From assembly GCA_017962085.1 (NCBI GenBank), contig JAGCWA010000011.1:1-64000 (forward strand): 64,000 bases of DNA, in the 5' to 3' direction. Positions 49,962 through 62,028 of this stretch are shown in pieces. Positions within the stretch are counted from its first letter, which is position 1. Each line of letters starts with the position of its first letter. Origin of the DNA: Paludibacteraceae bacterium (GTDB lineage: Bacteria > Bacteroidota > Bacteroidia > Bacteroidales > Paludibacteraceae). The notes under the pieces are model-generated. The model had not been told where the DNA came from. It saw only the letters and a program-made list of their open reading frames with translations, and ran no database searches. The translations under genes were made by a program, and so were the position numbers.

Positions 49962-50033
49962 CGTCTGGAGTTGTTTTTGACAAGTATCAATGAATTTATC
50001 GTGTTAATAATTCATAATGGATTATAATTTTTT

Positions 50034-50041
50034 TAAATTTG
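50034..50041 (+). promoter_or_regulatory. -7 promoter box TAAATTTG
   Basis: A perfect TAnnTTTG box inside the 835-bp region without an obvious gene. It precedes the possible small ORF at 50155 by 113 nt. Confidence 0.4.
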
Positions 50042-50154
50042 TGAAAAGGGGCTAAAGAAAGGGGTTAAGCGAAATCCTGATCCATTACGTAGGTCGCGAA
50101 TAGTGTTGATGTGAATAAGGGTTAAATTGCAAATCAAAGGATTATTTCCTGTTT

Positions 50155-50307
50155 GTGGTGAAAGAGTTTGCGGCGTTATGGGCTCTGATTGTTGTTTGTT
50201 GGATGTGTAACGATCAAAATATAACGCTTATGAGAATTCAGCTACTATTTATTTACGCAGCGGTTTTCCTGTTGTCATGGGCATGGTTGACGTTATTGAT
50301 ACCATGA
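50155..50307 (+). CDS. possible 50-residue two-helix membrane microprotein
   Basis: An open frame with a GTG start (50155 or 50158) encodes 50 residues. They have two hydrophobic stretches, FAALWALIVVCWMC and LLFIYAAVFLLSWAWLTLLI, separated by a short polar turn (NDQNITLMRIQ). A second in-frame start, ATG at 50230, would give only the second helix (25 residues). There is a -7 box at 50034. No family recognised, and chance cannot be excluded at this length. Confidence 0.35.
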   Translation: MVKEFAALWALIVVCWMCNDQNITLMRIQLLFIYAAVFLLSWAWLTLLIP

Positions 50308-50340
50308 TGTGGCCAGAACGGGAACGCATCAAAAAGAGTG

Positions 50341-50348
50341 TAATTTTG
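50341..50348 (+). promoter_or_regulatory. -7 promoter box TAATTTTG
   Basis: A perfect TAnnTTTG box that would start a transcript near 50355, running through the inverted repeat at 50403 to the terminator at 50608. Confidence 0.5.
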
Positions 50349-50402
50349 TAAGGGCATTTTCAATGTCCATGGTGTGTATGGTGATTAAGCACGGAATGTG
50401 CG

Positions 50403-50450
50403 ACTGTTTTCATAGGGGCGGGCAGTTCGCCCGTCCATTATGAAAACGGT
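50403..50450 (+). repeat. 48-nt inverted repeat
   Basis: Outer arms ACTGTTTTCATA and TATGAAAACGGT pair over 12 bp with one wobble. Inside, GGGCGGGC pairs with the CGCCCGTCC region over 8 bp with one wobble. Together they make a long, nearly continuous hairpin with an AGTTC loop. Confidence 0.8.
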
Positions 50451-50607
50451 AGAAAAAACGACAATCGAAACAAGTACGAGTGTAAAAAACAACATATTAA
50501 TTTATCATGAAACAAGGAGGGCATCGCCTCTCCGCACAAAACAGAAAAAAGAAGCATATACTACAAGATACGATTAAAATCTTCTAAACTCAATTACAAG
50601 TACGATT

Positions 50608-50640
50608 GGGGTGTTTTGTGAAAAGCGCCCCTTTTCTTTT
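50608..50640 (+). terminator. intrinsic terminator
   Basis: GGGGTGTTTT pairs with AAAAGCGCCCC over 10 bp (two wobbles) with a GTGA loop, followed by TTTTCTTTT. No recognised gene lies directly upstream, which points to an unannotated transcript. Confidence 0.8.
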
Positions 50641-50661
50641 ACCCTTCCGTGAGATATTTAT

Positions 50662-50725
50662 GATTTACTATTTACCATTTACGATTCCAGAAACTGGTAA
50701 ATCGGAAGTCGCCAAATCGTAAATC
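50662..50725. repeat. inverted repeat of dispersed TAAATCG type
   Basis: GATTTACTATTT at 50662 is complementary to AAATCGTAAATC at 50714-50725 with one mismatch. The composition matches the dispersed repeats at 12831 and 37131. Confidence 0.6.
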
Positions 50726-50778
50726 CCTACCCCTCTCGTCATTTTCTCTCCCCCCAACCATCTATCAGAATTATTTTG

Positions 50779-50786
50779 TAATTTTG
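50779..50786 (+). promoter_or_regulatory. -7 promoter box TAATTTTG (argD)
   Basis: A perfect TAnnTTTG box 58 nt before the argD ATG at 50845. It lies upstream of the in-frame GTG at 50797, which is therefore unlikely to be the start. Confidence 0.6.
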
Positions 50787-50844
50787 CGGTGTCTGAGTGG
50801 TCGTGGGACTAACTCGTTTGGAAAGAATGACTAATAATTGCAAT

Positions 50845-51981
50845 ATGAAACTTTTCGATGTATATCCGCTTTTCGATGTGAATATCGTAAAGGGTAAAGG
50901 TTGTAAGGTATGGGACGAGAAGGGCCAGGAATACCTTGATTTGTATGGTGGGCACGCTGTTATCAGCATCGGACATTGCCACCCTCACTACGTGGAGATG
51001 ATGACGAAGCAGTTGAATGCGCTTGGCTTCTATTCCAACTCCGTGATCAACAAACTGCAGGTTCAGTTGGCTGAACGCTTGGGCAAGGCCAGCGGTTACG
51101 AGGACTACCAGTTCTTCATGATCAACTCCGGCGCGGAGGCGAACGAGAACGCCCTCAAGCTGGCTTCCTTCTACAACGGACGTACCCGCGTGCTCTCTTC
51201 CGACAAGGCGTTCCACGGACGTACTTCGTTGGCGGTCGAGGTGACCAACAACCCGAAGATCATCGCCCCTATCAACGACAACGGCCATGTCACTTACCTC
51301 CCGTTGAATGACCTGGACGCTTGGGTGAAGGAGATCAAGAAGGGGGACGTCTGCGCCGTCATCGTGGAGTGTATCCAAGGCGTGGGCGGCATCCGTATGG
51401 TGACGAAAGAGTTCCTCCAGGGCCTCCGCAAGGCTTGCGATGAATATAACACTGTGTTGATCTGCGACGAGATCCAATGTGGATATGGCCGTTCGGGCAA
51501 ATTCTTCGCCCACCAACACTTGGACGTTAAGCCGGACCTCATCACGGTGGCGAAGGGCATCGGCAACGGTTTCCCTGTCGCTGGCTTGCTCATCGCTCCT
51601 AAATTCACCCCTGTATACGGACAGTTGGGTACGACGTTCGGCGGCAACCACATGGCTTGCACGGCTGGTTTGGCGGTGCTCGACGTGATGGAGCAGGAGA
51701 ACCTCGTGGCGAACGCTGGCGAGGTGGGAGACTACATCATGCAACAGCTGAAGGCGGCTAAACTGCCTCACATCACGGATATCCGCGGACGTGGCTTGAT
51801 GATCGGTATCGAGTTGGATTGCCCTCATAAGGAGATCCGTAGCAAACTGGTCTTCGAACAACACGTCTTCACGGGCTGCAGCGGAACGAACGTGCTTCGC
51901 CTCTTGCCGCCTCTCTGCTTGACGAAAGCGGAGGCCGACGACTTCATCGCACGTCTCAAGACCGTGCTGACCAATGCCTAA
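50845..51981 (+). CDS. argD: acetylornithine/succinylornithine aminotransferase
   Basis: 378 residues of the class III PLP aminotransferases. MKLFDVYPLFDVNIVKGKGCKVWDEKG is the normal ArgD start of Bacteroidota, so the ATG at 50845 is used. Motifs: GGHAVISIGHCHPHYV, NSGAEANENALKLA, CDEIQCGYGRSGKFF with the PLP-binding aspartate, and ITVAKGIGNGFP with the Schiff-base lysine. It makes N-acyl-ornithine in arginine synthesis. Unusually, no other arg gene is adjacent; a HisIE-like gene follows after 30 bp. Confidence 0.92.
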   Translation: MKLFDVYPLFDVNIVKGKGCKVWDEKGQEYLDLYGGHAVISIGHCHPHYVEMMTKQLNALGFYSNSVINKLQVQLAERLGKASGYEDYQFFMINSGAEANENALKLASFYNGRTRVLSSDKAFHGRTSLAVEVTNNPKIIAPINDNGHVTYLPLNDLDAWVKEIKKGDVCAVIVECIQGVGGIRMVTKEFLQGLRKACDEYNTVLICDEIQCGYGRSGKFFAHQHLDVKPDLITVAKGIGNGFPVAGLLIAPKFTPVYGQLGTTFGGNHMACTAGLAVLDVMEQENLVANAGEVGDYIMQQLKAAKLPHITDIRGRGLMIGIELDCPHKEIRSKLVFEQHVFTGCSGTNVLRLLPPLCLTKAEADDFIARLKTVLTNA

Positions 51982-52011
51982 TGGGCTATCGTAAACGTAA
52001 AAAATATAACT

Positions 52012-52581
52012 ATGCATACAATTCAAGCGGTTGTGCAGGATGTGCGCACCAAACAGATCCTTCGTGTGGGCTTCGTCAATGACGAGGCGATCGCGAAGAT
52101 GGAGGCGGAGAAGGTGGTTTACTTGCTGAACGCCGACCAATCCGCCTTGGAACTTATCACCGGAGGAGAGTACTTCAAACCGGTTGCGGTGGACTCCCTG
52201 GTCTATAACGTGGAGAAGACCGCCGTCATCATCAAGGCGTTGCCGGAAGGATCCACCACCGGGGCGGACACGTTCCGTGGCGACAAGAACATAGAGGACC
52301 TCGCTTTCCTTTCCTACTTGCAGGACTTCATCGAGAAGCGCAAGCGGGAGATGCCGGAGGGTTCCTACACGACCAAACTCTTCACCAAGGGCGTGAACAA
52401 GATCTCGCAGAAAGTGGGCGAAGAGGCTGTCGAAACCATTATCGAGGCTACGAACGGAACAGGCGAACAATTCCTCTACGAATCGTCCGACCTGATTTAC
52501 CACCTGATCGTCTTGCTGACGGAGAAAGGCTATAGAATCGAGGATCTGGCGAGAGAATTGAAGGCTAGACACAAAGAATAA
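52012..52581 (+). CDS. HisIE-like protein with degenerate HisI half and intact HisE half
   Basis: 189 residues. The first 90 follow the phosphoribosyl-AMP cyclohydrolase (HisI) fold (QAVVQDVRTKQILRVGFVNDEAIAKME). However, the zinc and catalytic motifs are gone: there is no W-x-KG-x-x-SG, no DCDxD, and TGADTFRG stands where CHTGxxTCFG belongs. No cysteine occurs in this half. Residues about 100-189 are a full phosphoribosyl-ATP pyrophosphohydrolase (HisE): FLSYLQDFIEKRKREMPEGSYT, KVGEEAVETIIEA, and ESSDLIYHLIVLL with the MazG-type acidic residues. It probably has only the HisE activity, or has been recruited for another nucleotide. No his operon is nearby. Confidence 0.85.
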   Translation: MHTIQAVVQDVRTKQILRVGFVNDEAIAKMEAEKVVYLLNADQSALELITGGEYFKPVAVDSLVYNVEKTAVIIKALPEGSTTGADTFRGDKNIEDLAFLSYLQDFIEKRKREMPEGSYTTKLFTKGVNKISQKVGEEAVETIIEATNGTGEQFLYESSDLIYHLIVLLTEKGYRIEDLARELKARHKE

Positions 52582-52587
52582 TTCTTC

Positions 52588-53436
52588 ATGACGGAATTTA
52601 CAATAATCACATTCTCCATAACAGTAGTCTTTCTATTCTGGTTTTCACCATCTTGGTTTCAATGGAAGGATGATAGAAACAAAAAGGGACTAGCCCAAAT
52701 GAAGACCTTTACTCGTGAGAACGATAATGATCTTTTCCCCAAGGGGTTATTCCATAAAGAGACGAGGCGTGCAATACGTGCCGTCGCCATATTGTTCGCC
52801 ATCATGATACGGAGGGACAATGAGATCATGGCCTCCGAAGCCTTGGTGGCGCACGAGTATTTCGACAAAAGATTTAAGGCATCCCACTACATGAAGATGT
52901 TCAGTGAGGACAAGAAGGTGTTGCGCTCCTTGCTGAAGAAATATTTGAAAGGCAAATTGCCCACGTTCAGAGACTGTGCGTTGGATGTCGTGAGAGCGGG
53001 GACTCCGTATGAGGCGCGGCTGGAGCTCTTAGAATATCTCTTCAAGACCGCCTATGTCTCCGAGGGCATCTGCGACGCCGAGATGGTGAAGTTGCGTGAG
53101 ATCGCGGAATACCTTCTCATCAAGGAGTGGGACATCCTCTCCTTGGAGTACAAATACGAGTTCAGGAGGAGGGAATCCAGCGACAGGCAAAAGGAGAACC
53201 AACGCCTCAACGACTTGTCCTGCAACATCATGCGACAGGCGTACCTCACCTTGGGTGTGTCGTCGGACGCTACGGATGATGAGGTGAAGGCGGCGTACCG
53301 TGAGATCGTGAAGGTTTGCCATCCGGACAAACTGACGGTGGAGGCGGGTTCTAAGGAGTGGGAGGAGTCGGTCGTGAGGTTCCGCCATACCGTTGAGGCC
53401 TATCACATGGTCTGTGACGCCAGAAATATATCATAA
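52588..53436 (+). CDS. membrane-anchored TerB-like / J-domain co-chaperone
   Basis: 282 residues with an N-terminal membrane helix (about 4-22), a helical TerB-like domain (about 55-185), and a C-terminal J domain (about 215-282). The J domain starts AYLTLGVSSDATDDEVKAAYREIVKVCHPDKL and has the HPD tripeptide that activates DnaK ATPase. The order membrane helix, TerB-like, J domain is that of DjlA. It begins 6 bp after the HisIE-like gene. Confidence 0.9.
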   Translation: MTEFTIITFSITVVFLFWFSPSWFQWKDDRNKKGLAQMKTFTRENDNDLFPKGLFHKETRRAIRAVAILFAIMIRRDNEIMASEALVAHEYFDKRFKASHYMKMFSEDKKVLRSLLKKYLKGKLPTFRDCALDVVRAGTPYEARLELLEYLFKTAYVSEGICDAEMVKLREIAEYLLIKEWDILSLEYKYEFRRRESSDRQKENQRLNDLSCNIMRQAYLTLGVSSDATDDEVKAAYREIVKVCHPDKLTVEAGSKEWEESVVRFRHTVEAYHMVCDARNIS

Positions 53437-53471
53437 TCATTATTTTATAAAAATATCCGTCTGAAATCCTC

Positions 53472-54284
53472 ATGAGGTTTTGCGCATGTGTCATCGCATA
53501 TTATCCTGACGAGCAGCTGTTGCGGAAGAACGTGGCATGCTACCGTGAATTCGCCGAGAAGGTCTTCATCTGGCAAAACACGCCTATGTGGGACCGTCAT
53601 GAGCTGGACAGCTTGGGCGATAATGTGGAATGGCTGGGCGAGGCGGACAACGTGGGCATCTCTCGTGCCCTGAACGCAGTGTTGAGGCGTTGCCAAGAGG
53701 CGGGGATCGATTACCTGCTCACCATGGACCAGGACAGCCAATTCGTGGATTTCAGCTATTTCCTCCACCAAATCGAGAGCCAACTGCCTGCCGAACAGAT
53801 CCTCTCATTCGCGCCTGTGACGCCTGGCGAATCCGCCGAGGCAGGATGCTTCGAGCCTAAGAACTACGTCATCACCTCCGGTTCCATGGTCAATGTGCCG
53901 TTAGCGCTGTCGATCGGTGGTTACCGTGAGGAGTTCTTGGTGGATGGTATCGACATGGATTTCTGCTTCAAGGCGCAAAAGGCTGGGCTACAGGTAGTGA
54001 TGGTGGGCGGTGCGACGCTCCGTCAGCGCTTCGGCGAGACCATCAAGGTGGGCGACAAGGAGATCGTCTCATACCCGCCTAAGCGTCTGTACGCTATCGT
54101 GAAGTCACAGTGGATGCTCTGGGCGGATTACCCCCAATACTTTAAGAAAACACGTTTCCTGAAGACTTTCTACCTGGGAGAACCCTATCATATCCTATTT
54201 TTCCAAAAAGATAAGTGCCGCAAGCTGTGGGCCATTCTCAGGGCCACCGTTTCAGGCCTGCGCTACCGAATCGCTCATTTATGA
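53472..54284 (+). CDS. glycosyltransferase family 2 (rhamnosyltransferase-like)
   Basis: 270 residues. The core resembles rhamnosyltransferases of the WbbL/RfbN type: ACVIAYYPDEQLLRKNV at the start, DNVGISRALNAVLRRCQEAGIDYLLTMDQDSQF with the metal-binding MDQDS, and FLVDGIDMDFCFKAQKAG near 165. It ends with basic residues that may contact the membrane. Its last 10 bp overlap the convergent MFS gene. Confidence 0.88.
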   Translation: MRFCACVIAYYPDEQLLRKNVACYREFAEKVFIWQNTPMWDRHELDSLGDNVEWLGEADNVGISRALNAVLRRCQEAGIDYLLTMDQDSQFVDFSYFLHQIESQLPAEQILSFAPVTPGESAEAGCFEPKNYVITSGSMVNVPLALSIGGYREEFLVDGIDMDFCFKAQKAGLQVVMVGGATLRQRFGETIKVGDKEIVSYPPKRLYAIVKSQWMLWADYPQYFKKTRFLKTFYLGEPYHILFFQKDKCRKLWAILRATVSGLRYRIAHL

Positions 54285-55474
54285 TTCATCAACCGGTAGG
54301 TGAGGAAGGTCATGATGAGTGTCAATCCGAAGACGTAGCCGTAGGCGACCCTCATGCTGGTTGCGTCGGCGATGGCTCCGATGAGGAACGGACCGAAGAG
54401 GAAGGCCGTGCTGCTGACCGTATTGACCATGGCGATACCCATGCCCGGGTTGACGCCCTTCTGCTTTCCTGCTAAGCTGTAGATGATCGGCACGAGGCAA
54501 GAGATGCCCAGACCGGCGATGAAGAATCCGACGGCGGCGCAGATGAAGTGTGGGTTGGAGATGATGGTGAGGATGCCGAAAGAGGTGAGCAAACAACTCC
54601 AGAAGAGGATGGTCGGGTCGCTGTAGCGCTGGCGCAATCGGTCGCCGAACGAACGTCCGATGGACATGAAGGCGGCGTAGATAGTTAAGCCCAACGGCGC
54701 GAGGTTCTCGGGAAGCGAAACGATGGTCTTCATGTAGACGGTGCTCCAATTGGTGAAGCTACCCTCCGTGACCCTCGAGCAGAGGGCGATGAAGGCGATC
54801 AGGAGCAATATACCCTTAGGCAATATCAGAAAGGGACGCTTCTCCACCCGCTCCGTTCGGGTGATGGTCTCCTGCAGGAAGAAGCGACGGATGTAGAAGA
54901 TGATGGCCACGCTGAAGAGCGCGACGCTGAGGTGGTGCACATAAACAGGGAACCCGTAGGTGATGAAGAGGATGCTGAGCAATGCGCCGCAGCACACCCC
55001 CACGTAGTAGAGCGCATGGAACATCGAGACGACAGGCCGCTTGTAGGCGTTCTCCACCAGGATGGAGTTACCGTTGATGGCGACGTCCGTGATGGTCACG
55101 AGCATGCCGTAGAGGGCGCAGAAAGGGAAGACGAGCAACTTATGGGGCATAAGCGTCATCAGGGGAAGCAGCAGCATGTAGGCGTAGCTCAGCGCCGTGA
55201 GCTTCTTGCTGCCGAACCGTGCGGAGAGGTGGCAACACATCGGGGTGATGATGAGCGAGCCGATCGCCATGCTGAGCGGAATGTAGCTCAGCTCGCGGAT
55301 GGACATCCCATAATGTGCGTTGATGGCCGGGTAGCGGGAGACGAGCGAGGCGTAGACGAAGCCCATCATGAAATATTGCGTCAGCAAGGCATACCTGGCA
55401 TGATGCTTGGTCGATGTAATTCTGTTGTGATGTGTGAGCGACGCTTCGCCCCATGGTGCATCCATCTTGCTCAT
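54275..55474 (-). CDS. major facilitator superfamily transporter
   Basis: 399 residues with 12 hydrophobic segments. The ATG at 55474 is chosen; the upstream in-frame codon at 55498 is TTG. The family resembles FucP/YbjJ-type sugar or small-solute permeases (HARYALLTQYFMMGFVYASLVSRYPAI, NPGMGIAMVNTVSSTAFLFGPFLIGAIAD). Substrate unknown. Its tail overlaps the convergent GT2 gene by 10 bp. A TACCTTTG -7 box lies on the minus strand at 55537-55544. Confidence 0.87.
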   Translation of the reverse strand: MSKMDAPWGEASLTHHNRITSTKHHARYALLTQYFMMGFVYASLVSRYPAINAHYGMSIRELSYIPLSMAIGSLIITPMCCHLSARFGSKKLTALSYAYMLLLPLMTLMPHKLLVFPFCALYGMLVTITDVAINGNSILVENAYKRPVVSMFHALYYVGVCCGALLSILFITYGFPVYVHHLSVALFSVAIIFYIRRFFLQETITRTERVEKRPFLILPKGILLLIAFIALCSRVTEGSFTNWSTVYMKTIVSLPENLAPLGLTIYAAFMSIGRSFGDRLRQRYSDPTILFWSCLLTSFGILTIISNPHFICAAVGFFIAGLGISCLVPIIYSLAGKQKGVNPGMGIAMVNTVSSTAFLFGPFLIGAIADATSMRVAYGYVFGLTLIMTFLTYRLMNHK

Positions 55475-55536
55475 TTTTCTTAATCGTTTAATATTCAATA
55501 CAATATATATTTCGTTGTCAGATCATAAATCGTCTG

Positions 55537-55544
55537 CAAAGGTA
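55537..55544 (-). promoter_or_regulatory. -7 promoter box TACCTTTG (minus, MFS gene)
   Basis: On the minus strand a perfect TAnnTTTG box lies 62 nt upstream of the ATG at 55474. Confidence 0.6.
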
Positions 55545-55741
55545 CGTATACAAGGGCGAAAAACAAAACCATTCATCCGTCTATTATAGCACTTTTCCTC
55601 CCTTGAAAAGTATATTTCCCCACCGCTTGTTTCTCCCCTATGAGACTATTTTTGTTTTTATAAAAAGTTGAATATTAAATCATTATAATTTTATAAGTAA
55701 TTTTTTTCAAAAATTGAGAACATTCTATTTGAATTATGCTA

Positions 55742-55749
55742 TAACTTTG
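55742..55749 (+). promoter_or_regulatory. -7 promoter box TAACTTTG (leu operon)
   Basis: A perfect TAnnTTTG box 20 nt before the leader peptide ATG at 55770, giving a transcript that contains the whole attenuator. Confidence 0.7.
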
Positions 55750-55769
55750 TACCCGTAATATTTCGAAGA

Positions 55770-55838
55770 ATGACAAATTACATACTCAATATTATTAACA
55801 TTTCCATTATTATCCTTTTGCGTAGCTTAAGGAAGTGA
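55770..55838 (+). CDS. leader peptide of the leucine operon (Ile/Leu-rich)
   Basis: A 22-codon open frame (MTNYILNIINISIIILLRSL, then two basic residues and TGA) with seven Ile and four Leu codons. Five of them are consecutive (Ile-Ile-Ile-Leu-Leu, codons 13-17) just ahead of the stop. Its stop codon lies inside the 5' arm of the antiterminator. This is the arrangement of ribosome-mediated attenuation controlled by charged tRNA-Ile and tRNA-Leu. Confidence 0.82.
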   Translation: MTNYILNIINISIIILLRSLRK

Positions 55839-55905
55839 GGAATGTGTATATTGACGAACCCTATAGAACCTTTCTCACTTCCTTGTGGGAAAGGTTCTTT
55901 TTTTT
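55829..55905 (+). promoter_or_regulatory. attenuator: competing antiterminator and terminator stems
   Basis: Antiterminator: AAGGAAGTGAGGAA (55829-55842) pairs with TTTCTCACTTCCTT (55871-55884), 11 bp perfect, extended to 14 with one wobble. Terminator: AGAACCTTTCTCAC (55865-55878) pairs with GTGGGAAAGGTTCT (55885-55898), 14 bp with one wobble, loop TTCCTT, followed by seven T. The two stems share 55871-55878 and cannot coexist. A ribosome stalled at the Ile/Leu codons leaves 55829-55842 free (read-through); one reaching the stop codon covers it (termination). Confidence 0.85.
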
Positions 55906-55931
55906 ATTATATTTATCTAACAAAAGAACTT

Positions 55932-57422
55932 ATGTCTGAGAGATTATTCATTTTTGACACGACACTGAGAGACGGGGAACAGGTCCCCGGTTGTCAGTTG
56001 ACCACCATCGAAAAACTTGAGGTGGCCAAAAGTCTCGAAGCTTTGGGCGTGGATGTGATTGAGGCGGGTTTCCCTATCTCCAGCCCGGGGGATTTCAAAT
56101 CGGTCGAGGAGATTTCCAAAGTGGTGACTTCACCTATCGTTTGCGCTTTGACCCGTGGTATCGAGAAGGATATTGACGTGGCCTACGAGGCGCTCCACTT
56201 CGCGAAGAGGAAACGAATCCACACGGGTATTGGTACGTCCGACTTGCACATCCGCTATAAATTCAACTCCAACAGGGAGGAAATTCTTGAGCGCGCCATC
56301 GCCGCCACAAAGTATGCGAAGAAGTACGTGGAAGACGTGGAGTTCTATTGTGAGGATGCGGGCCGGACCGACAACGAATACCTCGCCCGCGTGGTGGAGG
56401 CGGTCATCAAGGCGGGTGCGACCGTCGTCAACATCCCGGACACGACGGGCTATTGCCTCCCGGACGAGTTCGGCGCGAAGATCAAATACCTCTTCGACCA
56501 CGTCGACGGCATCCACAAGGCGGTCATCTCCACCCACTGCCACAACGACCTCGGCATGGCAACCGCCAACACGCTCGCCGGTGTGATGAATGGTGCCAGA
56601 CAAGTGGAGGTGACCATCAACGGTGTGGGCGAACGTGCGGGTAACACGGCGCTCGAGGAGGTGGTGATGGCCCTGCGCTGCCGCAAGGAGCTGAACATCG
56701 ACACCGCGATCGACACGAAACATATTTACCATACAAGCCGCATCGTCTCTAACCTGATGAACATGCCGATCCAAATGAACAAGGCGGTGGTCGGCAGGAA
56801 CGCCTTCGCCCACTCCTCCGGCATCCATCAGGACGGTGTGCTGAAGAACCTCCGCACCTACGAGATCATGGACCCTAAGGACATCGGCATCGACGATAAC
56901 ATGATCGTGCTGACGGCCCGCAGCGGTCGGGCGGCCCTTCGCCACCGCCTCGGCACATTGGGGTACGAGGTGACGAACGAACAGCTGGATGATCTCTACA
57001 ATAAGTTCCTCGTCTTGGCGGACCAGAAGAAGGAGGTGTTGGATGATGATATCCGCATGCTGATGGGAAAGGGCGGCGGAGAGAAGGCGGTCGAAGTGAT
57101 CTCTCTCCAGGTCGTTTCAGGCAAGAACATCAACCACGAGGCCGATCTGGTGCTCTCCGTCCATGGCGTGACCAAGGAGGCGAAGGCCTTCGGAAACGGT
57201 CCGGTGGACGCCGCCATCAATGCGCTGAAGGCTATCCTCCAAGAGAAGATGACCCTCTGCGAGTTCACCATCCAATCCATCAGCAAGGGTAGCAACGACG
57301 TCGGAAAGGTACACATGCAGGTGGAACATAACGGCAAGGTATATTTCGGCTTCGGTGCCAATACGGATATCGTCGAGGCTTCCCTCGAGGCCTATGTGGA
57401 CGCCGTCAATAAATTTATGTGA
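55932..57422 (+). CDS. leuA: 2-isopropylmalate synthase
   Basis: 496 residues. Starts [23 protein letters not shown], the DTTLRDGEQ catalytic block. [19 protein letters not shown] holds the metal-binding histidines, and [20 protein letters not shown] is also conserved. A C-terminal LeuA dimer/leucine-binding domain follows (about 385-496). It condenses 2-oxoisovalerate with acetyl-CoA, the first committed step to leucine. The ATG at 55932 is used; a frame open from 55842 would read through the terminator stem. First gene of the leu operon. Confidence 0.94.
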
Positions 57423-57443
57423 TAACTGATAACGATAGCAATT

Positions 57444-58838
57444 ATGAATACATTATTTGACAAGATATGGGATGCCCACGTGGTATCACAACTGGAGGAT
57501 GGGCCTTCCCAACTCTACATCGATCGCCTCTACTGCCATGAGGTGACCACCGCACAGGCTTTCACGGGCCTCCGTGAGCGCGGACTGAAATGCTTCCGTC
57601 CTGAACAGATCTATTGCATGCCCGACCATAACATCCCTACCCACGACCAGGACAAACCGATCGAGGACGAGGTGGGCAGGAAACAGGTGGCCACGCTCGA
57701 ACAAAACGCAAAGGACTTCGGACTGAGCTACTTCGGCATGAATGACAAAAGGAATGGTATCATCCACGTCGTCGGACCGGAGCGGGGACTTTCCCTGCCG
57801 GGCATGACAATCGTCTGCGGCGACTCGCACACCTCCACGCATGGCGCGATGGGTGCCGTGGCTTTCGGCATCGGAACCTCCGAGGTGGAGATGGTGCTGG
57901 CGAGCCAATGTGTGTTGCAGGCGAAGCCTAAATCCATGAGAATCAATATCGAAGGGGAACTCGGCAAGGGTGTGACCCCGAAGGATGTGGCGCTCTACAT
58001 CATGAGCCAGATGAGCACATCCGGCGCCACGGGTTACTTCGTGGAATATGCCGGGTCGACCGTCCGCAACATGTCCATGGAGGGCCGTCTCACCCTCAGC
58101 AACCTCACCATCGAGATGGGTGCGCGCGGCGGATTCATCGCACCGGACGAGGTGACCTTCGCCTACCTGAAGGGGCGTGAGCATGCTCCTAAGGGAGAGG
58201 CATGGGAGAAGGCGGTGGCCTACTGGAAGACCCTCCGAAGCGGTGAGGATGCGGTGTTCGACCGTGAAGTCACCTTCTACGCCAAGGATATCGAACCGAT
58301 GGTCACCTACGGCACCAACCCGGGCATGGGCATGGGCATCTCGCAACATATCCCTTCCCTCGAGAGCGTTGAGGCTTCGAGCCGCGCCTCCTTCCAGAAG
58401 AGCCTGAACTACATGGGCTTCCAAGCGGGCGAGAGACTCTTGGGCAAGAAGGTGGACTACGTCTTCTGCGGCTCCTGCACCAATGGTAGGATCGAGGACT
58501 TCCGCGCGTTCGCTTCGCTCGTGAAAGGGAAAAAGAAAGCACCAAACGTGACCTGCTGGTTAGTGCCGGGCTCATGGATGGTGGACCAACAGATCCGTGA
58601 AGAGGGGTTGGACAAGGTGCTCGAGGAGGCTGGCTTCGTCCTCCGTCAACCGGGCTGCTCCGCCTGCCTCGCCATGAACGACGACAAGATACCGGCCGGC
58701 AAACTGAGCGTCTCCACCTCCAACCGTAACTTCGAGGGCAGGCAAGGCCCTGGCGCCCGCACCATACTGGCCAGCCCGCTCGTGGCAGCCGCAGCCGCCG
58801 TCACAGGCGTCATCACAGACCCTTGCACAATGTTATAA
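57444..58838 (+). CDS. leuC: 3-isopropylmalate dehydratase large subunit
   Basis: 464 residues, aconitase-type. Fe-S cluster cysteines are in [13 protein letters not shown] and [37 protein letters not shown] is the family block near 130. With LeuD it isomerises 2- to 3-isopropylmalate, and by analogy citramalate in the CimA route. Follows leuA by 21 bp. Confidence 0.96.
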
Positions 58839-58859: not shown

Positions 58860-59462
58860 ATGAAACAGAAATTCGATATAATAGTTAGCAGATGTGTTCC
58901 CCTCCCATTGGAGAATGTGGACACGGATCAGATCATACCCGCCCGTTTCCTGAAGGCGACGGACAAAGAGGGGTTCGGTGAGAACCTATTCAGGGATTGG
59001 CGCTACGACAAGGAGGGTAACCCTGTCAAGGAGTTCGTGCTGAACGACCCCACCTACAGCGGCTGCGTCCTCGTGGCTGGCAAGAACTTCGGTAGCGGTA
59101 GCAGCCGTGAGCATGCGGCCTGGGCCATCGCCGGATATGGGTTCAGGGTGGTTGTCTCCAGCTTCTTCGCGGACATCCACAAGAACAATGAGCTGAATAA
59201 CTTCGTCCTGCCTGTCGTCGTGAGCGAACCTTTCCTGGCCCGCCTCTTCGCCAGCATAGACGAGAACCCAAAGATGGAGGTGAAGGTGGATCTGCCGAAC
59301 CAGACCATCACCAACCTGGCGACAGGGGAGAGCGAACGGTTCGAGATCAATGCCTACAAGAAAGAGTGCCTCATGAAGGGTTACGACGATATCGATTACC
59401 TATTGAGCAAAAAGAACCTCATAGAGGATTATGAGTCTAAAAGAGATATGACATGGAAATAA
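58860..59462 (+). CDS. leuD: 3-isopropylmalate dehydratase small subunit
   Basis: 200 residues. [22 protein letters not shown] near the start and the swivelling-domain loop [21 protein letters not shown] are the LeuD hallmarks. It overlaps the next gene by 10 bp. Forms the dehydratase with LeuC. Confidence 0.96.
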
Positions 59463-60964
59463 TGGACACTACCCTACGTGATGGGGAACAGACATCGGGG
59501 GTATCATTCGCCCCCCACGAGAAACTGGGTATCACCCGCATGATGATCGATACCTTAGGGGTGAACCGTGTGGAGGTGGCCTCCGCCAGGGTCTCCGACG
59601 GTGAGTCGGACGCGGTGAAGCGTATCGTGGAATGGGCGAAGAAGGCCGGACACCTGCAACGCATAGAGGTGCTCGGTTTCGTGGATGGCGGCACCTCCCT
59701 CCGCTGGATCGAGGAGATGGGCGCCAAGGTGATGAACCTGCTCACCAAGGGTTCGAAGCGTCATGTGGAGAACCAATTGGGGAAGAGCACTCAAGAGCAT
59801 CTCGCGGATATCCGCGCCATCGTCCTCGACGCACAGGCAAGGGGTATCGAGGTGAACCTCTATCTGGAGGATTGGAGCAACGGCATGATCCACTCACGCG
59901 AATACGTCTACGAGTATCTGGACGCTATCGCCGACCTACCCATCAAGCGGGTTATGCTGCCGGATACCTTAGGCATCCTCAACCCGCAGCAGACCTTAAC
60001 GTTCTGCAAGGATATGTTGGACCGTTACCCGAAGTACCACTTCGACTTCCATGCCCACAACGACTATGACCTCGCCTTGGCGAATGTATTCGCCGCCGCG
60101 TCGGCCGGTATCCAAGGTCTGCATACCACCTTCAACGGATTGGGCGAAAGGGCGGGCAACGCTCCGCTGACCAGCGTCGTGGCGGTGCTCCATGACCAAC
60201 TGAAGATCAAGACCTCCATCCGTGAGGATAAGATCTACCAGATGAGCAAGCTGGTGGAGACCTACTCGGGCATCCGCATCCCGAACAACAAACCGATCAT
60301 CGGTGACAATGTCTTCACCCAATGCGCGGGCATCCATGCGGACGGGGACTCGAAGAACCACCTCTACTACAACGACCTGCTGCCGGAACGTTTCGGACGT
60401 GAGCGTGAATATGCCTTGGGCAAGATGTCGGGCAAAGCCAGCATCCGCAAGAACATCGAGGCGTTAGGCATCAGCCTAGACGATGACTCGATGACCAAGG
60501 TCACGCAACGTATCATCGAGCTGGGCGACAAGAAGCAGATCGTCACGCAGGAGGATCTCCCCTATATCATATCGGACGTGCTCAAACACCCTGTGGAGAA
60601 GCAGAAGATCCGCATGGTCAACTACTCCCTCTCGCTTACCCATGGCATACGCCCTGTGGCGACCGTGAAGATAGAGATCAACGGGGAAAGCTACCAGGAG
60701 ACCGCAGCCGGCGACGGACAGTACAACGCCTTCACTAAGGCGTTATGGAAGATATACACCTCGCTCAAGAAACCGATCCCTGAGTTGCTGGACTACTCGG
60801 TCATCATCCCTCCTGGCGGTAAGACGGACGCCTTGGTCCACACCACCATCACATGGAAGTTCCGTGACCACGTGTTCAAGACCCACGGACTGGATGCCGA
60901 CCAGACAGAGGCGGCCATCCAAGCAACAGAAAAAATGTTAAACTTAATAGAAGAAAAACAATGA
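59453..60964 (+). CDS. cimA: (R)-citramalate synthase / isopropylmalate synthase family
   Basis: 503 residues of the DRE-TIM family, starting [38 protein letters not shown] holds the metal-binding histidines, [15 protein letters not shown] follows, and a regulatory C-terminal domain ends the chain. It is clearly a second paralog of leuA in the same operon, as expected for citramalate synthase (pyruvate + acetyl-CoA), the first step of threonine-independent isoleucine synthesis. This agrees with an Ile-rich leader peptide. A second 2-isopropylmalate synthase cannot be ruled out. Overlaps leuD by 10 bp and leuB by 4 bp. Confidence 0.8.
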
Positions 60965-62028
60965 AACTGAATTTAGCCATATTACCTGGAGACGGCATCG
61001 GACCTGAGGTGGTCTCCGTTGCCCTGAATGTAGTGAAGAAAGTGTGCGAGCGCTTCGGACACTCGCTGACATACGACTCCGCTTTGGTCGGTGCCTGCGC
61101 CATCGACGCTTGCGGTGACCCTTATCCTGAGGATACCCACGCACTCTGCATGAAGGCGGATGCTGTGCTCTTCGGCGCAGTGGGCGACCCTCGCTTCGAC
61201 AATGACCCTACCTCCAAGGTGCGCCCTGAGCAGGGACTGCTCGCCATGCGTAAACAGTTGGGACTCTACGCCAACCTGCGTCCGGTGGAGACCTACCCTT
61301 CGCTCGTCGGCCAATCTCCCCTCAAGGAGGAGGTGGTGAGCGGTGCGGACTTCCTCTGCATCCGTGAGCTGACTGGCGGTATGTACTTCGGTGAGAAGGG
61401 AAGGAAGGAGAATGGCACGGTGGCCTACGATACCTGCATCTACAGCACGGAGGAGATCCGCCGCATCCTCAAGCTCGCCTTCGAATACGCTATGCGGAGA
61501 CGCAAACACCTGACGGTCGTGGACAAAGCGAACGTCCTGGAGTCTTCCCGCCTATGGAGAGAGGTGGCTCAATCCATGGAGAAGGATTACCCTGAGGTGA
61601 AGACCGATTATATGTTCGTGGACAATGCCGCCATGCAGTTGGTGCGTTGCCCGAAGTTCTTCGACGTCATGGTGACGGAGAATACCTTCGGCGACATCCT
61701 CACCGACGAGGCGAGCGTCATCGCAGGCTCCATGGGCCTTCTCGCCTCCGCCAGCATCGGCACGCACACCAGCCTCTTCGAACCAATCCACGGCAGCTAC
61801 CCTCAGGCGGCTGGCAAGGACATCGCGAACCCATTGGCGGCTGTGCTTTCCGCCGCAATGATGTTCGAATACGCCTTCAACGCCAAGGAGGAGGGCGCTA
61901 CTATCCGTCGCGCGGTGGCGGCTTCCCTCGAAGCGGGTATCGTCACGGAAGACCTCGCCGCCAAGGGCGCGAAAGCCTACAAGACCAGCGAGGTCGGGAA
62001 GTGGTTATGTGATTATATTGGTCGATAA
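60961..62028 (+). CDS. leuB: 3-isopropylmalate dehydrogenase
   Basis: 355 residues. [50 protein letters not shown], and the metal/substrate block [25 protein letters not shown] with [18 protein letters not shown] are diagnostic. It oxidises and decarboxylates 3-isopropylmalate with NAD+, and by analogy 3-methylmalate in the CimA route. Start overlaps cimA by 4 bp. Confidence 0.97.

Follow-up and report, generated by a model that had tools for sequence, protein, structure and literature searches.

A candidate ribosome-mediated transcription attenuator with Ile and Leu codons upstream of leuA in a Paludibacteraceae bacterium, and codon-matched leaders before other amino-acid operons of Bacteroidota

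The DNA analyzed here, referred to as the window, is a stretch of 64,000 nucleotides (contig JAGCWA010000011.1, positions 1 to 64,000) from the genome of a Paludibacteraceae bacterium. It contains a leucine biosynthesis operon preceded by a short ORF rich in Ile and Leu codons and by a hairpin followed by a T-run, which raises the question of whether the synthesis of branched-chain amino acids in this organism is controlled by a leader peptide. A sequence-only reading of the region had proposed a ribosome-mediated attenuator, and in this study we examined its parts, its conservation in relatives and the occurrence of similar leaders before other operons.

Architecture of the leader and of the leuA operon

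The features of the region are listed in Table 1. The elements named by the sequence-only reading were located as claimed: the −7 box, the leader ORF with its Ile and Leu codons and the terminator stem with its T-run were read directly, and the 5′ arm of the antiterminator lies over the stop codon of the leader. The −7 box conforms to TAnnTTTG, which we take to be the −7 promoter consensus of Bacteroidota, and this motif occurs in the 60 nt preceding the start codon of the leader in 56 of 63 relatives, as against 4% of mononucleotide-shuffled upstream regions. Visual inspection revealed neither a convincing −33 box at its customary distance from the −7 box nor a Shine-Dalgarno sequence for the leader ORF; Bacteroidota hardly use Shine-Dalgarno sites, and initiation of translation in these bacteria is largely non-Shine-Dalgarno. 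As judged from sequence only, an intrinsic terminator is present between the leader and leuA. An in-frame ATG at position 55842 prolongs the leuA frame in the 5′ direction through the terminator (positions 55842-55931), so that gene callers could misplace the leuA start.

Table 1. Features of the leuA leader and operon in the window
Feature	Position	Strand	Remarks
MFS transporter gene	54275-55498	−	upstream of the leader, divergent
−7 box, TAACTTTG	55742-55749	+	taken as Bacteroidota type, TAnnTTTG; read directly
Leader peptide ORF, MTNYILNIINISIIILLRSLRK	55770-55838	+	ATG 55770, TGA 55836-55838; 22 codons, 7 Ile, 4 Leu
Predicted 1:2 protector hairpin	55786-55854	+	leader codons and antiterminator arm; MFE fold
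Core regulatory codons, ATT ATT ATC CTT TTG (IIILL)	55806-55820	+	position-wise conservation
Antiterminator 5′ arm (segment 2), AAGGAAGTGAGGAA	55829-55842	+	overlaps the leader stop; 14 bp with 55871-55884
Terminator hairpin (segments 3:4)	55865-55898	+	14-bp stem, 55865-55878 with 55885-55898
Antiterminator 3′ arm (segment 3)	55871-55884	+	within terminator 5′ arm and loop
T-run of intrinsic terminator	55898-55905	+	read directly
leuA, 2-isopropylmalate synthase	55932-57422	+	ATG 55932; NCBIfam NF002086 and TIGR00973 above cut-off
leuC	57444-58838	+	TIGR00170 above cut-off
leuD	58860-59462	+	TIGR00171 above cut-off
cimA-like (citramalate synthase, isoleucine branch)	59453-60964	+	best NCBIfam model NF042433
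leuB	60961-62028	+	TIGR00169 above cut-off

The fourth gene of the operon matched NF042433 (CimA of Leptospira) with an E value of 1e-193 and 644 bits (cut-off 950) and TIGR00977 with 160 bits (cut-off 450), and because both scores are under the equivalog cut-offs the gene is named cimA-like only. In the congeneric loci L082, L084 and L086, the leader and leuA are 98-99% like those of the window, and the DNA farther 5′ had no match within positions 50001-57500; the break in the match falls between 55741 and 55786, at the −7 box in L082 and inside the first codons of the leader in L084 and L086. As far as these comparisons indicate, the operon and the putative attenuator may have changed place together as a block.

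The fold of 55771-55915 had a z score of −5.9, a value equaled by none of 200 shuffles. In free-RNA folding, the antiterminator was formed when the RNA ended before segment 4, and the terminator won once segment 4 was present. When 55820-55868 was shuffled, the stretch complementary to the terminator arm and loop reached at least 14 in 1 of 5,000 shuffles and at least 10 in 132 of 5,000; the observed value was 15. An ATG ORF of 12 to 45 codons with at least 11 Ile and Leu codons arose in 4 of 5,000 shuffles of 55750-55860, and dinucleotide shuffling of all intergenic DNA (55500-55931) produced one in 391 of 5,000 trials; since AT-rich intergenic shuffles match it this often, the leader ORF alone is weak evidence. 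A chance ORF, which the whole-intergenic shuffles do not rule out, is ruled out by conservation in relatives, and it is from this conservation that the predicted leader switch is well beyond chance.

Conservation of the two helices and of the leader codons

LeuA searches yielded 596 candidate contig loci, of which the best 80 (by title mostly Bacteroidales, one Lentisphaerae) were used, and a second set comprised 30 loci from 61 related genomes, giving 110 leuA loci in total. Alignment A1 consists of 64 of these loci, 43 from the best 80 of 596 and 21 from the related genomes; its rows were picked for a visible leader, and counts from A1 therefore describe only loci with a leader. The 46 loci left out were near-duplicates (L082, L083, L086, L091, L104 and L106), L031 (incomplete sequence), L100 (preceded by 33 nt of DNA), L096 (missed, although a leader is visible by eye), L090, and the 37 loci, less L031, in which no leader was seen initially. 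A covariance model, R1, was built from A1 and thus from leuA leaders only, and it later found a leader in four of the loci that had initially shown none (L010, L017, L019 and L050).

R1 matched 5′ of leuA at E ≤1e-5 in 48 of the best 80 of 596 loci. The match is by construction in the 43 that belong to A1, and each of the five outside A1 has an Ile/Leu-rich ORF; in the other 32 of these 80 loci no R1 match was found before leuA. A true LeuA is encoded by 41 of the 61 related genomes. By hand comparison, 29 of these, including 14 that comprise the window's genome and its congeners, have an R1 match just 5′ of leuA, and 21 A1 rows stem from this set; the other 12 have none, one of these lying at a contig end and one having a leader by eye. 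In a class sample of 295 genomes, 37 had an R1 match at E ≤0.001, and matches at E ≤1e-12 were found only within the window's order.

Both helices showed two-sided changes in A1. In the terminator helix, all 14 pairs had such changes and 88.0% of cells were paired; in the antiterminator helix (64 rows), the figures were 13 of 14 pairs and 76.5%. None of 500 shuffles attained the observed helix values on any of five measures, and sliding a helix by 1 to 3 columns lowered pairing to at most 67.3% for the terminator and at most 52.0% for the antiterminator. The two predicted helices are mutually exclusive, and a shared segment together with covariation in both helices is the signature of a switch. 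For the 1:2 hairpin, folds of the 5′ half paired at least 5 of 9 arm bases upstream in 63 of 64 relatives (mean z −2.3), and no covariation was found in the 64-row alignment.

The sequence-only reading had suggested a search for the same leader before leuA in relatives and had named, as one observation that would speak against it, relatives lacking the Ile/Leu-rich frame and compensatory stem changes; both were present. With leader frames taken in frame from A1, an Ile/Leu counterpart was found in 63 of 64 rows; the exception, L078, is misaligned at the anchor. About 20% of the residues over these 63 leaders are Ile, about 20% are Leu, and 3.9% are Val. The core consensus over the 64 rows is I/L, I, I, L, L, with Ile at position 3 in 54 rows and, at position 4, Leu in 48 and Arg in 13. 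At position 5, 56 of 64 rows have Leu, and the residue is conserved as an amino acid rather than as DNA, because all six Leu codons (TTG, CTG, CTT, CTA, CTC and TTA) are used. Arm 2, in turn, is conserved as RNA, and the reading frame through it varies among relatives.

In 60 of 64 rows, the antiterminator arm (GGAAGTGAG) starts 13 to 16 nt past the first nucleotide of the final core Leu codon. Given the size of the ribosomal footprint, this spacing would place the arm start at about the leading edge of a ribosome that holds this codon in its A site. In the window, this distance is 13 nt and the stop lies at +5 from the arm start, a clean predicted geometry for both stalling and masking. Among 63 relatives, 35 have the stop at −5 to +5 relative to the arm start, 24 at +15 to +22 and 4 at +27 to +34. 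A ribosome at a stop between +15 and +34 (28 of 63) would mask the arm only partly, and at +27 to +34 (the 4) not at all, which makes the simple masking model weaker for those species.

The sequence-only reading had also tied the Ile richness to the presence of cimA in the operon. This fits the sample overall, a cimA homologue lying 3′ of leuA in 39 of the 43 A1 loci from the best 80 of 596 (in the other four, under 3.8 kb of sequence follows the start of leuA, not enough to tell), but falls short of proof: in L165 (leuA-leuC-leuD-leuB), the sole operon lacking cimA for which a leader was visible, the leader (MNKTIIILSIILLA) is likewise of the Ile/Leu type and retains its Ile. At L163, L164, L166 and L167, where leuA has no adjacent cimA, no Ile/Leu leader was seen by eye, and such loci are uninformative on the link between cimA and Ile.

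Proposed mechanism and alternative explanations

From the parts, the two-sided changes in both helices, the codon conservation, the spacing and the pathway-matched codons, we infer that the leader is very probably a ribosome-mediated transcription attenuator sensing charged tRNA-Ile and tRNA-Leu. The transcription start, ribosome stalling, termination and amino-acid response would then be as follows. Transcription would start right after the −7 box, and a ribosome following RNA polymerase closely would initiate the leader at 55770. With Ile or Leu scarce, this ribosome would stall at the IIILL codons, its leading edge reaching the antiterminator arm, and would open the 1:2 hairpin and leave 55829-55842 free; segment 2 would pair with the emerging 5′ half of the terminator (2:3), and the polymerase would continue into leuA-leuC-leuD-cimA-leuB. 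If Ile and Leu are ample, the ribosome would reach the stop inside the arm and mask it, the 3:4 hairpin would form, and transcription would stop near 55905, yielding an RNA of about 150 nt.

The alternative that survives best, which we regard as improbable, is an attenuator look-alike that acts otherwise, for example by constant partial termination, with the ORF aiding translation or mRNA stability. Streptomyces ilvB and leuA provide a precedent, since for Streptomyces coelicolor mutations of the ilvB leader codons are described as having no effect and those of leuA as not fitting attenuation (PMC1262725). In the leaders studied here, however, codon identity tracks the product of the pathway, and in a look-alike the antiterminator would have no reason for covariation.

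We think it highly unlikely that the terminated leader RNA, besides attenuation, also serves as a trans-acting small RNA. rnTrpL in alphaproteobacteria is a precedent for this, and the predicted product here would be a separate transcript of about 150 nt with an intrinsic terminator at its 3′ end, but attenuation already explains the observed conservation.

A T-box or other ligand-binding riboswitch would likewise be a structured 5′ leader with a terminator and an antiterminator. Searches against Rfam 15 gave no T-box match at gathering score in the window and none at E ≤1 in 55700-55960, and no match to known amino-acid leader families or other regulatory families at the gathering threshold, the sole gathering-score match in the window being 5S rRNA and the best sub-threshold match PyrR (E 0.07); with an Ile/Leu-rich ORF conserved through synonymous change, a riboswitch is thus a negligible prospect. 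Equally negligible is a functional small protein followed by an ordinary terminator: the peptide is hydrophobic and has counterparts in many relatives, but its length (16-31 residues) and C-terminus vary while only the Ile/Leu content and core are kept, and the antiterminator covaries.

Codon-matched leaders before other operons and relation to known systems

R1 also matches leaders of other operons. At ilvD loci of relatives, 21 of 30 had an ORF with at least 36% Ile+Leu+Val within 330 nt upstream; nine lacked one, including a locus situated at a contig end. Val amounted to 20.6% in 16 distinct ilvD leaders versus 3.5% (mean per peptide) in the 63 leuA leaders (Mann-Whitney p 1.5e-9).

Individual loci were inspected as well. 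In the window's genome, a leader of the same type precedes ilvD (L147, G000:C59:84168-84317, minus strand; peptide MMRTIRINIIISILALVVCRC), with a weak R1 match (E 0.004), and no such leader was found before ilvD at the congener loci L188-L190. In that genome, hisG is also preceded by a His-rich leader (MFNTKFHHNHHHYQR) and a terminator (L219, G000:C54:3795-3910, minus strand), and pheA by two tandem Phe/Tyr-rich leaders (MKNFFSYYFYFFYFIQ and MMNNWCFYYYYFFYFMRFIR), each with its own terminator (L218, G000:C39:8339-8624); visual inspection upstream of its thrA revealed no Thr leader. In other genomes, we noted a Cys-rich leader (CSSLVCCC) with a terminator before a cysE-like gene that is under cut-off (L156, G160:C49:25303-25454), the next gene reading by eye like cysteine synthase; a leader containing WWW (MNFLLTNTFWWWHSQLKKS) before trpB (L214, G055:C59); and a leader with an Ile/Thr run (MYNSTIIITIIITT...) before thrA (L158, G100:C1). 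Putative tandem attenuators were seen at ilvD, where the first leader begins with GTG (L212, G058:C112:1-350), before a gene like that of the acetolactate-synthase small subunit (L220, G161:C23:497049-497317) and as a pair at a contig end (L159, G227:C248).

The regions viewed in other genomes numbered 14 from the class search and 6 from the related-genome search. Single leaders were found before ilvD (5), ilvB (2), ilvE (2), thrA (1), the cysE-like gene (1), trpB (1) and pheA (1), and the three tandems were one at ilvD, one at the acetolactate-synthase small-subunit-like gene and the contig-end pair; the other four regions were noise or doubtful. Gene names were assigned by family models for one representative each; the second ilvE, the cysE-like gene and that pheA scored below NCBIfam cut-offs, the pheA being above that of Pfam. 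Weak R1 matches in G059:C29, G014:C152, G000:C51 and G160:C45 were rejected by eye as plain hairpins or noise, and the one in G043:C40, beside a glutamate-synthase-like gene, is doubtful as a leader.

Leader-peptide attenuation is likely to be a general control of amino-acid operons in Bacteroidota, with candidate codon-matched leaders at leuA, ilvD, ilvB, ilvE, thrA, hisG, pheA, trpB and cysE, some of them in tandem as possible serial gates; outside leuA and ilvD, this reading draws on one or two genomes per operon.

The leader in the window combines Ile and Leu codons, whereas the leader codons of leuL are mainly Leu. It also differs from proteobacterial leu, trp and his attenuators in matching no Rfam family, in its Bacteroidota promoter and the lack of a visible Shine-Dalgarno sequence, and in that its regulatory codons partly form the 1-arm of the predicted 1:2 hairpin. 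In other respects it resembles proteobacterial leuL, trpL and hisL as these are described for what is a textbook mechanism (PMC1183508): a leader with codons for the product, an antiterminator and terminator and a predicted 1:2 hairpin, all before the operon. The leucine-rich attenuator peptide of the Staphylococcus aureus ilv-leu operon shares control of branched-chain synthesis, but belongs to another phylum, and repression there is also exerted via CodY (PMC5794164); a branched-chain-rich uORF for which attenuation has likewise been proposed comes from other lineages and precedes a different first gene (PMC10272879); and the actinobacterial LEU element shares a Leu-codon leader before leuA, but is described as a pseudoknot with the Shine-Dalgarno box, with no terminator or antiterminator (PMC1262725).

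The statement of the sequence-only reading that such attenuation is less described in Bacteroidota was fair, since, one likely earlier survey aside, the reports found mention it in passing (PMC9723704, PMC7366714). For Flavobacterium psychrophilum, RNA-seq provided 'strong clues' that amino-acid operons are subject to leader-peptide attenuation, and conserved 5′ elements were noted upstream of several genes including pheA and hisG; phylum and proposed mechanism are shared with the window, and the passages of that report considered here neither name leuA nor give a leader alignment or covariation (PMC9723704). In B. thetaiotaomicron, sORFs in 5′ UTRs are described as reminiscent of leader peptides (PMC7366714).

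The mechanism itself is thus known, the leuA leader would be a further case of it that no Rfam 15 model matches, and the greater interest lies in its extension to a codon-matched set across the phylum. We claim no priority, because Lopatovskaya 2010 is a likely prior survey and may already predict attenuators in Bacteroidetes. That survey is cited by PMC4833913 and PMC10272879.

For Bacteroidales, the leader described here offers a concrete, testable candidate regulatory RNA for branched-chain amino-acid synthesis. Conservation of an attenuator would be natural evidence for transcription-translation coupling, because the ribosome must follow RNA polymerase closely. Codon-matched leaders may be usable as reporters of the levels of single aminoacyl-tRNAs, and the serial gating suggested by tandem attenuators is of interest. 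If leader-peptide attenuation is indeed general in Bacteroidota, transcription and translation would be tightly coupled phylum-wide, and leuA would be governed by a dual sensor of Ile and Leu.
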